Below are positions 11,789 to 42,840 of a DNA stretch of 64,000 bases, in pieces (position 1 is the first letter of the stretch; the number at the start of each line of letters is the position of its first letter). The notes under the pieces were generated by a model. The model was not told the origin of the DNA, ran no database searches, and saw nothing but the letters and a program-made list of their open reading frames with translations. This DNA comes from Myroides pelagicus (lineage in GTDB: Bacteria > Bacteroidota > Bacteroidia > Flavobacteriales > Flavobacteriaceae). Position numbers and translations under genes: made by a program. The stretch lies in contig NZ_WMJY01000009.1 of NCBI RefSeq assembly GCF_009711055.1, positions 1 to 64,000 on the forward strand, written 5' to 3'.

Positions 11789-11983
11789 CTATCCTAATTT
11801 ATCGATAATTTCTTCAACCTTTCTTTCTGTATTTGTAAGCTTCTCCTTACAGTATACGATCAACTGAGATGCTCGTTCAACTTTCTCCGCCAAATCATCT
11901 ACTGTTACTTCATCATTTTTTATAGCCTTTAATATCTCATCTAGTTCATTTGCGGCTTTTTCGTATGTGATTTTTTCATCCAT
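11789..11983 (-). CDS. xseB: Exodeoxyribonuclease VII small subunit
   Basis: The 64-aa helical-hairpin subunit binds XseA to make the ssDNA exonuclease VII. It starts MDEKITYEKA, like other XseB proteins, and shows the ANELDEIL helix and the VERASQLIVYCKEKL helix. Its first 43 nt lie inside the 3' end of xseA in another frame. That long overlap suggests coupled translation, fitting a complex with many small subunits per large one. Confidence 0.93.
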   Translation of the reverse strand: MDEKITYEKAANELDEILKAIKNDEVTVDDLAEKVERASQLIVYCKEKLTNTERKVEEIIDKLG

Positions 11984-13431
11984 TCCTCTACTTCTTTTAT
12001 ATTATCAATCGTTATCTGATATCGTTTATTGTATATTTCTACTTCTATTTCATCTCCTGACTCTAATGAAGTATGCTCTTTTATTGTCTCTCCATTAAAA
12101 CGTATTATTGCAAAACCTTTTTTCAACAGAGAATCGAAATTAAAATAAGTAGGTATACTTTCTAAGTGCTCCAACCTTTTTTTTTCTCTATCAATAACTG
12201 ATTTAGATTGCAAAAATATTGCTTCTTCCTTAGAAATTAATTCTCTTCTCGACGTCTGTAACTTCTGTTCCATAAAGAATGACAACAAGCTACCTTTTTC
12301 TCTTAACCTAACCTCTTCGGCTTGCAACTCTCTTAAGGGCTTATACTTTAATACTTGCTTTGCCACTTCTATTGTTGAAGTTTCCACGTGCAATCTATTC
12401 TTAGAATACATGACAGTCTCATTCATTGCTGCTAATAGCTTTCGCCTTTTTTCCAAAACCCATTGTCTTGTATAGGTATTAAAACTAATAGCCATATTAT
12501 TCATTTCTAGTCGTTCCACTTCCAAAATATGCTTACTAGAAGATAAAATATGGTCAAAACTTTCTTGAATATGCACACTAAATTGATAAGCCTTTTCAAC
12601 TATAAAAGCTGCAACAGCACTTGGTGTTTTAAATCGAGTATGTGCTACACAGTCTGCTATAGTACTATCTATCTCGTGTCCTATACCTGTAAATACAGCT
12701 GTGTGCATCTTGGCAATCGCTTCTGCCAAATTATAGTTATTAAACTCACTAAGATCTAATACAGACCCTCCTCCTCGAATAATAACAATTACATCGTAAA
12801 TATCCTTAGGTATTTGTGATAGTTTTTCAATTATCTGTATATGTGCATTATCTCCTTGTACCCTACAATTGAAATAATCTATTTCAAATACAAAACCATA
12901 ATCATTTTCTTCTAATTGATTGACAAAATCAATAAAACCTGCTGTATCTACCGACCCTACTAAAGCAATACGCTGGATTACTATTGGATAAGCTAACTGT
13001 TTGTTCAAGTCTATTAACCCTCTTTCATTTAACAACTTTAAGGTCTCCTGCTTTATCCTTTCAATCTCCCCTAAAGTAAAGCTAAAATCAACATCTAAAA
13101 CATTAATAGACATACCATAGATAGGGCTATAAACCAATTCACAAAAGCACAAAACCTCTGTCCCTACCTTTAATACCTCACTAACTTCTTCTCCTAGCTT
13201 CCCGTATAAGTGGTTAACCGTTTGACTCCAGATTGTAGCCCTTGACTTAGCAACTATATAAGCACCGTTGTGCTCGACGAGATCTAAATAAATATGCCCT
13301 TTTCGGTCTTTCTTAAGCTGAGCAATTTCAACCTTTATCCAAAACGAATGTGCAGAAATCTGTTCATCAAATATCTGCTGTACACGTCCCAAGATTTTAC
13401 TGAGTGTAAACCACTTATTCTCCTTCTTCAC
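11941..13431 (-). CDS. xseA: Exodeoxyribonuclease VII large subunit
   Basis: This is the catalytic subunit of the ssDNA exonuclease VII that trims single strands during repair and mutation avoidance. An OB-fold wHTH domain (residues 1 to about 110, with FWIKVEIAQLK) is followed by the catalytic core, containing VIIRGGGS, FTGIGHEID and TPSAVAAFI. Then comes the long coiled-coil shaft that carries XseB and a C-terminal tail. The 496-aa length is normal; family members range from about 400 to 500. Its 3' end overlaps xseB by 43 nt. Confidence 0.95.
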   Translation of the reverse strand: MKKENKWFTLSKILGRVQQIFDEQISAHSFWIKVEIAQLKKDRKGHIYLDLVEHNGAYIVAKSRATIWSQTVNHLYGKLGEEVSEVLKVGTEVLCFCELVYSPIYGMSINVLDVDFSFTLGEIERIKQETLKLLNERGLIDLNKQLAYPIVIQRIALVGSVDTAGFIDFVNQLEENDYGFVFEIDYFNCRVQGDNAHIQIIEKLSQIPKDIYDVIVIIRGGGSVLDLSEFNNYNLAEAIAKMHTAVFTGIGHEIDSTIADCVAHTRFKTPSAVAAFIVEKAYQFSVHIQESFDHILSSSKHILEVERLEMNNMAISFNTYTRQWVLEKRRKLLAAMNETVMYSKNRLHVETSTIEVAKQVLKYKPLRELQAEEVRLREKGSLLSFFMEQKLQTSRRELISKEEAIFLQSKSVIDREKKRLEHLESIPTYFNFDSLLKKGFAIIRFNGETIKEHTSLESGDEIEVEIYNKRYQITIDNIKEVEEWMKKSHTKKPQMN

Positions 13432-13534
13432 AATGCAATAACTTAAAAAACAAAGCTACGACCTTTCTTAGCAAAAATCAAAAACACTATTGCTAGTTTC
13501 CATAGCATAATAAAACGGTGTATAACTGTTAGCT

Positions 13535-13787
13535 GTTATAATAGGAGATCAGATGATATTTCTGCAACTAAACAACCTAGGGTAATTTAAAAAAACACGG
13601 TATGCTATCCTTTTTACTTCTCGAAAAACTACTACTATTTCTATTAATTTAGTAGTATGTGACTGAATGAGAAAACAATTTTTTGAAAACAAGCACCTTG
13701 TTTTAACTCATCAAAAAGTTAGAATAATAATATTTAGGGCCAAGCTACTGCAATAAGTGCAGTATACGTGCACTTATTGCAGTAGCC
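13535..13787 (+). repeat. Dispersed intergenic repeat, copy A
   Basis: This 253-bp stretch aligns, in inverse orientation, with 33564-33902. I estimate roughly 70% identity over the first 220 bases. Shared blocks in order are GTTATAATAGG, AGATGATATTTCT, AAACAACCTA, CGGTATG-TATCC, GACTGAAT, a TTTTTTGAAAACAAG run, CTTGTTTTA-CTCAT and a terminal GCAGTAGCC. Both copies sit in large gene-free gaps between divergent genes. No protein is encoded, so it could be a non-coding RNA gene or a decayed non-autonomous mobile element. Confidence 0.75.
13744..13786. repeat. Long perfect hairpin at the end of repeat copy A
   Basis: Perfect 18-bp arms (13744-13761 and 13769-13786) surround the 7-nt loop GTATACG. 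No T tract follows, so it is not a standard terminator. A smaller hairpin, AAAACAAG-CAC-CTTGTTTT, lies upstream at about 13686-13704 and is conserved in copy B. Confidence 0.85.
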
Positions 13788-14229
13788 TGATTTATTAAAA
13801 AAACAACAGTAACTAACGTATTAGACAGCCTGATTGATAAAATACCTATAGATATCCCTGTGAGCTATGAAGGGAGATAGGTTAATTTCTCACAATAGAG
13901 ATAATATAGAACGACTTATTATTGAAGTCTGTATATAGTTATGATAGTAAATGGAAATCCATTAAAAACTTAACATCAATTAGCACACAAATACCCTTTT
14001 GTACCCTATTAGTAGTTTATCGTATTACTTTATTCTATTAGATATACTATCTCTTAACTCCTCAAAAATCACATCGTCTATGATACCCCAATTATAAAAA
14101 CTAAGAATTGTGTATAATTATTCCTTTATTGTCATTTACTATGACAGATTATCAACTAACCTTCCCTCTAGATAATCTATATTTCACACTAGAATCGAGT
14201 AATTGTTCTTTAAAGAGGCATATCTTTTT

Positions 14230-14258: not shown

Positions 14259-14696
14259 ATGACTACAATAAAAATTATCAATAAATCACAACACGCTCTT
14301 CCAAATTACGAAACAGCACAATCCGCAGGAATGGATTTACGAGCAAACTTAGAAACATCCGTAACCATAGGAAGTCTTGAAAGAGCTATTATTCCAACAG
14401 GCCTATACCTAGAGTTACCTGATGGATACGAAGCACAAATCCGTCCAAGAAGTGGATTAGCTGCCAAAAAGGGAATCACGTTATTAAATAGCCCAGGAAC
14501 TATTGATGCTGATTATAGAGGAGAAATAGGAGTAATCCTAGTAAACTTATCTAAAGAGCCTTTTACCATTGAAAATGGTGAGCGAATTGCCCAGATGGTT
14601 ATTGCACAATATGAACAAATAGAATGGAAACCTGTAGAAATCCTTTCAGAGACATCGCGTGGAGAAGGAGGTTTTGGTAGCACAGGACATAAATAA
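14259..14696 (+). CDS. dut: dUTP diphosphatase (dUTPase)
   Basis: This trimeric enzyme hydrolyses dUTP to dUMP and pyrophosphate, keeping uracil out of DNA and feeding thymidylate synthesis. All five motifs are present in order: [37 protein letters not shown] and the P-loop-like [10 protein letters not shown] at the C-terminus. The 145-aa length is standard. A sugar nucleotidyltransferase follows 21 nt downstream and is probably co-transcribed. Confidence 0.97.
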
Positions 14697-32638: not shown

Positions 32639-32683
32639 GTACAAAAAAGGGCATCAAATGATGCCCTTTTTTGTACTTATATT
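32632..32683. terminator. Palindromic bidirectional terminator holding both stop codons
   Basis: The centre is a perfect inverted repeat with 25-bp arms (32632-32656 and 32659-32683) and a 2-nt loop. It contains the batE stop TAA (32636-32638) and, mirrored, the cvpA stop (32677-32679). GGGCATCA forms the core and the flanking A/T runs allow termination from either side. Confidence 0.9.
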
Positions 32684-33219
32684 GATTCTGTTTCTATTGG
32701 TGTGGTCAAAATATCAACACTCTGTTCAAACAAAGTCTTCACCATAGCATAAAGGCTAGGCAACAATTCCTCAGATAAAACCATATAAACTTGATAACTA
32801 TAGGACAGAAGTAACGTATCTTGGTTAACTAACTGAACAGCCTTATTTAATTCATCAAAAAAAGATAGTAATACACTACCTACTAATACAACAACCAATA
32901 CCTGAAATACAGCTCCAAAAAGCCGATTAACAAACCCTAAATAAACTGATTCAAATACCTTCGTTAGCATATTTGCAATAAACTTGACTACCAATATAGA
33001 TATAAAAAAGGCAGCTACAAATGAAATAATTGGCAATAAAGAAGTATTCCACCCTAATTCAGTATACAACCAAGCCTTAAGTACATTAGAGAATTTTAAA
33101 GCTCCTATAACACCAATTAAAATAGACAAAAAAGCCGCAACAGAAACAAATAATCCCTTCTGAAAACCAATATAAATACTATAAACTAAAGCTATTCCAA
33201 CAATTATATCTAATATCAT
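32677..33219 (-). CDS. CvpA family membrane protein
   Basis: Four membrane helices are visible (about 5-22, 25-45, 62-85 and 103-125), with a GFVNRLFGAVFQVLVV stretch typical of the family, and a polar C-terminus. CvpA-like proteins are named for colicin V secretion, but in most bacteria their role is unknown, with links to envelope homeostasis and bile resistance. The 180-aa length is typical. It is convergent with batE and sits upstream of a gene-free gap. Confidence 0.85.
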   Translation of the reverse strand: MILDIIVGIALVYSIYIGFQKGLFVSVAAFLSILIGVIGALKFSNVLKAWLYTELGWNTSLLPIISFVAAFFISILVVKFIANMLTKVFESVYLGFVNRLFGAVFQVLVVVLVGSVLLSFFDELNKAVQLVNQDTLLLSYSYQVYMVLSEELLPSLYAMVKTLFEQSVDILTTPIETESI

Positions 33220-33320
33220 GTACTTAATTTTAATACGAATATATTACAATTCACTCATTTATTATTAACTTAAGTCCATCAATTAGACTATTATTGTATC
33301 ACCTTCCAGAGTTATACGAG

Positions 33321-33356
33321 TTATTTGGAGAGGTAAACATTATCCTTTCCAAATAA
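33321..33356 (+). repeat. Stem-loop near the third repeat fragment
   Basis: 13-bp arms (33321-33333 and 33344-33356) with one G-U pair on the plus strand and a 10-nt loop. There is no T tract. Its function is unclear. Confidence 0.6.
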
Positions 33357-33393
33357 ACCAATATCAATATACAACCATTCCAAAAAAGTAGTT

Positions 33394-33419
33394 TAGGTTG
33401 TTTAGTTAGAGAAATACTA
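33394..33419 (-). repeat. Short third copy of the repeat's conserved block
   Basis: The 26 bases match 22 of 26 positions of the block in copy B (33859-33884) and a similar share in copy A: a TAGGTTGTTTA core followed by AGAAATA. The rest of the repeat is not recognisable nearby. Confidence 0.55.
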
Positions 33420-33563
33420 ATTCACCTTTCTTTAATACAGGAGATAGCCTTCCATTTACATATTTATTAGCATTACTAATCACAAACAAAATACACAATA
33501 AGCATTGATTATCAATTTTTTAATAAATAATGTTTTTTTCAATTCTTATTTAAAATTAATTTA

Positions 33564-33902
33564 GGCTACTGCGGTAGATAACATCCTTACCTGCTCTCTT
33601 GACCTATAGTTGCAGTATTCGTGCACTTTCCTTGCCAAGAGTCTACTCCTGGACTACTAAACTGCACAGCTACTGCACGTATAGCAGTAGCTCAGCACCA
33701 AATACTGTAATTTTGAAACCTCTATGAGCTAAAACAAGTAACTTGTTTTCAAAAAATTATTTTTCTATTCAGTCTCATACTGCTAACATCATAGAGAAAA
33801 TAGTGATTTTTGGAAAATAAATAAGGATAACATACCGAATTTACTTTTAAATAATCATAGGTTGTTTAATTATAGAAATATCATCTTATCCCCTATTATA
33901 AC
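33564..33902 (-). repeat. Dispersed intergenic repeat, copy B
   Basis: 339 bp, read on the minus strand, aligned with copy A (13535-13787). The first 220 bases align throughout. The hairpin part is longer than in A: GCTACTGC occurs at 33565-33572 and 33669-33676, and GCAGTAGC at 33684-33691, so the last can pair with either of the first two. That allows two alternative stems, a local one (33669-33691) and a long-range one. Nothing in it encodes protein. Confidence 0.75.
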
Positions 33903-34014
33903 ACCTAATGGACATACATGAAATATAATTATCGATTTGGCGATACAACTTATACAATACCTAAGTACCATTAACCCAAACCATCTTAATCGAAAACTAT
34001 AGGCATGCCACAAA

Positions 34015-34537: not shown

Positions 34538-35554
34538 ATGATAGATAAAATAAAAGAATACATCGGTGAAGCCGAAGCATTTCACACCGATAGTAAAGAG
34601 ACACTTGAAGCATTTAGAATAAAATTCTTATCAAAGAAAGGGATCTTAAATGACTTGTTTGCGCATTTTAAAACTGTGCCAAATGAGCAGAAAAAAGAAT
34701 TCGGTCAAATCATCAACTCATTAAAAAATATTGTTGAAGGAAAAGTAAAATCAATCCTAGAAGAGTTAGAATCTAAAGATGTACAGGGCTTATATGGAGA
34801 CCTAACAAGACCTGGATACCCAATCGAGATAGGCTCAAGACATCCTATATCTTTAGTAAAAAATCAAATAGTTGATATCTTCAATAGTATTGGATTTAAT
34901 ATTTCTGAGGGACCTGAAATCGAAGATGACTGGCATAACTTCTCTGCATTGAACTTTCCAGAGTACCACCCTGCTAGAGATATGCAAGATACTTTCTTCG
35001 TGCAAACGAATCCAGAGCACCTATTGCGTACACATACATCATCTGTACAGGTGCGTTATATGGAAAAAAATGCACCTCCTTTAAGAACAATATCTCCAGG
35101 ACGTGTATTTAGAAATGAAGCTATTTCATCTCGTTCACATTGTATCTTCCATCAAGTTGAAGGTCTATATATTGATAAAGATGTTTCTTTTGCCGACTTA
35201 AAACAAACATTGTTGTATTTCACTAAAGAAATGTTCGGAAAGTCTAAGATTCGCTTACGTCCTTCTTATTTCCCTTTTACTGAGCCTAGTGCTGAAGTAG
35301 ATATTTATTGGGGATTAAAAACAGAAACTGACTACCGTATTACGAAAGGTACAGGTTGGTTAGAAATCGGAGGTTGTGGAATGGTTGATCCTAATGTACT
35401 TAAAAACTGTAATATCGATCCAAACATTTATAGCGGCTTTGCTTTTGGTATGGGAATTGAGCGTATTGCTATGCTATTATACCAAATCGGAGATATCCGT
35501 ATGTTCTTTGAGAACGATGTTCGTTTCTTAGAACAATTTAAATCGAATTTCTAA
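34538..35554 (+). CDS. pheS: Phenylalanine--tRNA ligase alpha subunit
   Basis: This is the catalytic class II subunit of the alpha2-beta2 PheRS. An N-terminal coiled coil (about 1-85) binds tRNA-Phe. The catalytic core has motif 1 ([16 protein letters not shown]), motif 2 ([21 protein letters not shown], in part) and motif 3 ([16 protein letters not shown]). The 338-aa length is standard. pheT is not adjacent, which is common in Bacteroidetes. A terminator follows at 35582-35613. Confidence 0.96.
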
Positions 35555-42764: not shown

Positions 42765-42835
42765 GGCTTCGTGTCCGAGTGGCTAGGAAGCGGTCTGCAA
42801 AACCGTCTACAGCGGTTCGAATCCGCTCGAAGCCT
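42765..42835 (+). tRNA. tRNA-Cys (GCA)
   Basis: 71 nt with acceptor arms GGCTTCG/CGAAGCC and discriminator T. The D stem is TCC/GGA, the anticodon stem GCGGT/ACCGT (one G-U pair), the loop CTGCAAA with anticodon GCA at 42797-42799, and the T stem AGCGG/CCGCT with TTCGAAT. CCA is not encoded. A terminator follows. Confidence 0.95.
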
Positions 42836-42840
42836 CAAAC

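Follow-up and report, generated by a model that had tools for sequence, protein, structure and literature searches.

The two diverged repeat stretches at 13.5 kb and 33.6 kb of the window (the 64,000 nucleotides of Myroides pelagicus DNA analysed here) are probably non-autonomous, non-coding mobile elements of the miniature inverted-repeat (MITE) type. Each is a copy of an interspersed repeat of ~590–640 bp that we call R-H-R: two direct copies of R (~165 bp) flank a core, H, of about 105–110 bp, and a consensus from 41 copies resolves the left part, the core and the right part. The element is of the MITE/palindromic-repeat kind and is unusual in its mirrored 11-bp core, which is spread through one clade.

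The two stretches are homologous, as the original prediction had proposed. In a DNA search with 13535–13787 as query, bases 1–241 (241 of the 253) aligned with 33660–33902 on the minus strand at 77% identity (E 1.4e-46), a likeness that is not due to chance. The existence of both copies therefore stands, but the limits first given to them were too short, with R matches reaching beyond. Both copies do sit in 0.8-kb gaps between divergent genes. The gap of copy 1 measures 827 bp and lies between xseA (11941–13431, minus strand) and dut (14259–14696, plus strand), and that of copy 2 measures 868 bp and lies between cvpA (32677–33219, minus strand) and a small ORF whose first base is 34088 (plus strand), which precedes pheS (34538–35554, plus strand).

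Copy 1, on the plus strand, begins with its first R, the left end of the ~165-bp MITE-like repeat, at 13518–13683 (110 bits with the R profile, whose training set includes it); this R is also backed by the upstream consensus of 41 copies. The small conserved hairpin noticed earlier, AAAACAAG/CTTGTTTT, can be read from the sequence at 13686–13704, between R and H. The core H of copy 1 is collapsed: repeat finding places it at 13741–13789, with 21-nt arms that are 95% complementary around 7 nt, and the H profile match covers 13725–13775. A partial second R in the same orientation as the first follows at 13850–13936 (R profile positions 4–90, E 3.7e-4). In copy 2, on the minus strand, the first R lies at 33752–33919 (92 bits) and the second, again oriented as the first, at 33291–33454 (68 bits), both being in the R training set; the second also scored 33.8 bits, in L029, with the profile built from upstream copies alone. 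Between them, at 33575–33711, is a core H of two mirrored arrays of 11-bp units (profile E 3.5e-35, in the training set), which was matched on both strands, as expected for a near-palindrome. The envelope of the R matches puts the entire R-H-R at 33287–33920, about 630 bp, and its end-to-end length is 627 bp. A third R-H copy lies on the same contig 1.4 kb past the end of the window (C93:65430–65563; loci L014 and L184). Elsewhere in the window, at 42765–42836, is a tRNA-Cys (GCA), the sole RNA gene found in it.

The left and right parts of the consensus are direct repeats of each other, with a local score of 150 compared to 71 ± 8 (maximum 98) in 300 shuffles. R carries imperfect terminal inverted repeats of 24 bp. 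Its consensus starts with taTGtATaTCtgTTtGATGTAATA, its ends are like TATGTATATCTGTTTGATG, and the other end of the consensus, when reverse-complemented, reads TATGTATCTCTATTTAGTATCATA, identical to the start at 18 of 24 positions; R is thus constructed as a miniature inverted-repeat element would be. When the outer ends were scanned at the 92 listed H loci, at least 16 of 23 positions matched in 16 of 92 flanks on the 5′ side (none in shuffles) and in 14 flanks on the 3′ side (2 in shuffles). R was recognised on both sides of H at 16 of the 92 listed loci with a profile of upstream copies only, and at 21 with a profile trained on upstream and downstream copies; a further 8 had R upstream alone, 3 had it downstream alone and 60 had it on neither side. 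At none of the 92 listed loci was R opposed in direction to H. We saw no long ORF shared among the element copies. At one locus (L052, G000:C60:61512, G000 being this genome), the left half of the element enters an insertion that starts with a putative transposase-like ORF.

The repeat is abundant in the genome (3.34 Mb in 103 contigs). DNA searches returned 28 and 46 rows, counting self-matches and rows from both strands, and a sequence-only H profile built from 35 core copies gave at least 92 sites after the best 150 of 1031 candidates were collapsed, 85 of the listed sites scoring at least 40 bits. The further genomic copies that the original prediction would have taken as support are therefore present. 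Because at least one array (C24:13774) appears in the pattern search alone, outside the 92 profile sites, this number is a lower bound. With respect to neighbouring genes, the 92 listed sites show no favoured orientation: 22 lie between tandem genes in the same direction, 20 between tandem genes in the opposite direction, 18 between divergent and 17 between convergent genes, while 8 overlap ORFs of 252–270 bp, which we take to be spurious, and 7 lie at contig edges. Single copies can be folded into stable hairpins, as transcription terminators or attenuators would. However, this even distribution, the 18 listed sites between divergent genes and the placing of both window copies in divergent-gene gaps leave us giving hardly any credence to such a role.

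The element is probably mobile and spread by transposition. For the earlier idea of a short mobile element, copy number, terminal inverted repeats and an empty orthologous gap all turned out in its favour, and target duplications are suggestive. MITEs are short (about 50–1000 bp), AT-rich and non-coding, with many copies. The size of the element, its number (at least 92 H sites, 21 of the listed ones with both R), the inverted ends of the R consensus and the outer ends that match above shuffles are all features of MITEs, as are empty orthologous sites, which we see at copy 2. The gap of 868 bp in this genome is 241 bp in Myroides albus (G020), whose locus is identical to that of M. albus BIT-d1 across 420 bases, and 93–96 bp in seven other relatives; these lengths cover G020 and those seven, with G216, G242, G181, G320, G194, bin47 and G064 outside the comparison. 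No match to H or R was found at the copy 2 locus in 16 related loci, and none to H in 80 named pheS loci.

Target-site duplications are suggested by 9-bp flank repeats, which matched at 8 or 9 of 9 positions in 4 of 11 well-placed full copies compared to 10 of 110 mispaired controls; a perfect 9 of 9 occurred in one of those 11 copies only. In a looser set of 28 copies, 3 had at least 8 matching flank bases where 3.3% would be expected, an unclear excess, and copy 2 of the window has a flank repeat of 7 of 9 and no clear target-site duplication. Four intergenic comparisons, of sequences too diverged for the purpose, gave no clean insertion junction. A putative transposase would act in trans on the R ends, and duplications of ~9 bp would be made at insertion. 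The entire R-H-R unit would have moved in this lineage, with copies then decaying where they stood. Since 60 of the 92 listed H sites have no recognisable R, R cannot account for their spread. H alone may be older and more widespread than R-H-R. A profile made solely from this genome found one solo R in the relative G181 (E 2.3e-12) and no other R in 150 loci (876 kb) from other species.

The core H has about four 11-bp units on each arm, laid out as two mirrored rows around a centre of ~13 bp, and the unit consensus in this genome is NAWWSNKCAMG. Among 35 aligned copies, ten gap runs fall inside H, six of 11 bp, one of 22 bp, two of 1 bp and one of 7 bp, such that 7 of the 10 length changes are 11 or 22 bp. 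Variable triplet positions fall at the matching place in every unit. The pattern CAMGNAWWSNKCAMGNAWWSNKCAMG, taken from this genome, matched 48 times here and twice in G020 (0 in the control); none of the 59 further genomes in the GTDB genus gave a match, and the control had 0 there too. We assembled four alignment sets: A1, from this genome (35 of 41 copies, leaving out L001, L023, L026, L027, L028 and L052), A2 and A3 (19 of 27 and 17 of 17 copies, respectively, that passed a filter), and A4, from other species (40 of the 49 copies found). Information content in A4 peaks at a lag of 11 (0.39), whereas in A1 the lag-11 signal is weak (0.16) and a lag of 24 gives 0.17. H is probably a row of putative protein-binding sites spaced one turn apart. 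The subunits of a putative DNA-binding protein would follow one another head to tail along both mirrored arrays, at a spacing of 11 bp or one helical turn.

Could the arms of H instead form the stem of an RNA? The consensus does hold a long imperfect dyad as well as the small hairpin, and the original prediction had offered a non-coding RNA gene as one reading. This did not bear out: we found neither the stem covariation that it had looked to, in the core or in the small hairpin, nor a supporting Rfam family. RNAalifold predicted 0 pairs on the 35 aligned cores of this genome, and compensated pairs in the core were not above shuffles when counted on named structures. For the small hairpin, 77.7% of cells were paired in 19 copies compared to 77.6% when shuffled, and 269 of 500 shuffles paired at least equally. 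Complementary arm cells numbered 1212 in this genome (1201 ± 9 in row shuffles). In the other species (A4), the arms were less complementary than shuffled rows (1038 vs 1096 ± 21, with 498 of 500 shuffles at least as high); the one exception was the A4 dyad shifted by one unit, with 998 vs 970 ± 15 and 15 of 500 shuffles as high. From these pair counts, the arms are inherited as like sequences and not maintained as a stem, and since they lack covariation, the RNA reading is not supported. Rfam gave no family at E up to 1 in the 33.2–34.1 kb gap and only weak animal and plant microRNA hairpin models at 13.4–14.3 kb, far below their cut-offs, all of the matches at copy 1 falling on one perfect inverted repeat. 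At the gathering threshold, tRNA alone was returned for the window. Overall, we regard a structured non-coding RNA family as very unlikely. The unlikeness of the arms in other species may instead reflect avoidance of a perfect palindrome: arms that stay unlike each other would prevent the extrusion or loss of a long palindrome.

Arrays of this design occur beyond M. pelagicus. Allowing one mismatch, CAMGNAWWSNKCAMGNAWWSNKCAMG matched in 14 of 398 genomes. Seven of the 14 are among the 15 genomes with a PheS at least 89% like the one here (131 matches in G000, 13 in G020, 8 in G146, 5 in G320, 4 in G181, 3 in G099 and 2 in G291); the other seven account for 8 matches among 383 genomes, which is no excess over the 6 control matches. 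The arrays of G020, G146, G181, G320 and G099 align without gaps across ~105 bases, and in their unit, CTWG-SRS-TWT-N, one half is conserved and a triplet varies. At E ≤ 0.01, the A4 profile of 40 arrays found arrays in 13 of 20 genomes, comprising 13 of the 15 Myroides-like genomes (none in G064 or G282) and none of the 5 others of the GTDB genus; its training copies came from five of the 13 positive genomes, with none from the other eight, which include this genome. The H arrays of most related genomes examined share the same unit design in different wording.

It is worth asking whether H is a functional chromosomal site under selection, for instance a nucleoid-protein, gyrase or partition-type array, which R merely acquired here. 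The 11-bp unit common to 13 of the 15 genomes of the clade despite differing wording, a varying triplet that recurs at a fixed position in the unit, and 13 cross-genome locus pairs with both flanking genes in common (among 222 loci in seven genomes, 218 of them distinct, as four G020 sites were counted twice) all argue for such a site. One H place is common to G000, G181 and G320, and the right-hand gene of another is common to G000, G146 and G020. However, most places are not common to species: G000 (92 listed) and G020 (49 distinct) share 4 both-flank pairs, where chance is estimated to give 1–2, and G146 (29) and G181 (21) share 1. One array of G181 is decayed in G146, two members of the clade have no arrays, and constraint looks weak, H being just slightly more conserved (275 of 295 identical columns) than the 120-base flanks (640 of 720) in three close orthologous pairs; in other orthologous pairs H aligned worse than its flanks. 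By eye, the strong arrays of G146 and G099 follow no consistent ori-ter pattern. Taken together, a selected chromosomal site seems to us possible, and clearly less probable than the MITE-type reading.

Two more specific proposals were rejected. Fixed H sites across species would need more than the 13 both-flank pairs, which are too few given the chance estimate for G000 and G020, and an ori-ter rule, sought from array positions relative to dnaA in complete genomes, was not retained, with long gaps in G146 and G181 and not in G099 (by eye, with rough arithmetic). Strong arrays are absent from ~1.1 Mb after dnaA in G146:C1 and from ~0.7 Mb in G181:C1, and no such absence is seen in G099. We also came across a second palindromic repeat of ~160 bp with matches on both strands (L436:13873–14032 in G181, L369:1856–2015 in G146 and L111:1295–1456 in G020), in several cases no more than ~100 bases away from an H array. 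L445:15442–16056 (G242) and L106 (G020) hold a series of near-identical 77-base stretches at a spacing of ~104 bases, which are probably clustered tRNA genes.

REP-RAYT systems consist of interspersed intergenic palindromic pairs whose sequence is species-specific. H is likewise interspersed and intergenic, with palindromic pairs in species-specific wording, and could be imagined as a REP/BIME-like palindrome mobilised by a RAYT-type Y1 transposase, present in a single copy and co-evolving with the wording of each species. REPs of the GTAG and CGTC super-families are described as stem-loops of 20–40 bp, often with G-T pairs (PMC3733652, PMC12306157). Similar to REPs and BIMEs, H has many small intergenic palindromic copies and paired inverted units; unlike them, it is ~105 bp long, is made of 11-bp modules and has arms without covariation (PMC3733652, PMC12306157). 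We noticed no GTAG/CGTC tag in H. Given its size and its 11-bp units, we consider a RAYT-driven origin improbable.

For the MITE-type element as a whole, we found no published account of the R-H-R repeat in the open-access literature. The nearest published relative found is a MITE of Porphyromonas gingivalis named BrickBuilt, which has 19 intergenic non-coding copies, terminal inverted repeats, internal tandem repeats that vary in number, no transposase and uneven target-site duplications (PMC4596501). Both elements occur in Bacteroidota and combine intergenic copies, inverted ends and internal repeats. In BrickBuilt, the direct repeats are 23 nt long and form a single array, and the 12-nt ends are IS5-like, whereas R-H-R has 11-bp units in two mirrored arrays, 24-bp ends and two whole R (PMC4596501).

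The core finds its closest parallels among protein targets. CarH/CarA operators carry three or four tandem 11-bp repeats, on one face of which a MerR-type protein oligomerises head to tail (PMC9304148). The same tandem spacing of exactly 11 bp is found in H, in the gap runs, in the pattern matches against 0 in the control and in the lag-11 peak of A4. In contrast, the CarH motif nnnnTnnACAn stands beside a promoter, and NAWWSNKCAMG is mirrored and occurs at dozens of sites (PMC9304148); TnnACA is absent from the H unit, which by eye offers TnnACG or TnnAAG at best. BldC of Streptomyces, a MerR-like protein, binds direct repeats as cooperative multimers, much as proposed here for the binder of H; it comes from a different phylum and is not known to be tied to mirrored interspersed arrays (PMC5859096).

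It is tempting to go further and speculate that the H arrays, as mirrored rows whose 11-bp units each have a variable triplet, are a novel clade-wide chromosomal binding element, its wording homogenised within each genome and co-evolving with a putative head-to-tail binder. We hold this to be rather doubtful; if true, species that share an intergenic place each have a dialect of their own there. The analysis corrects what could easily have been called a new RNA gene, and the arrays let one ask how a repeated protein target ends up inside a miniature transposon. Dozens of near-regular 11-bp arrays per genome, alike in design and not in wording across one bacterial clade, form an unusual natural series for following how a protein and its target change together.
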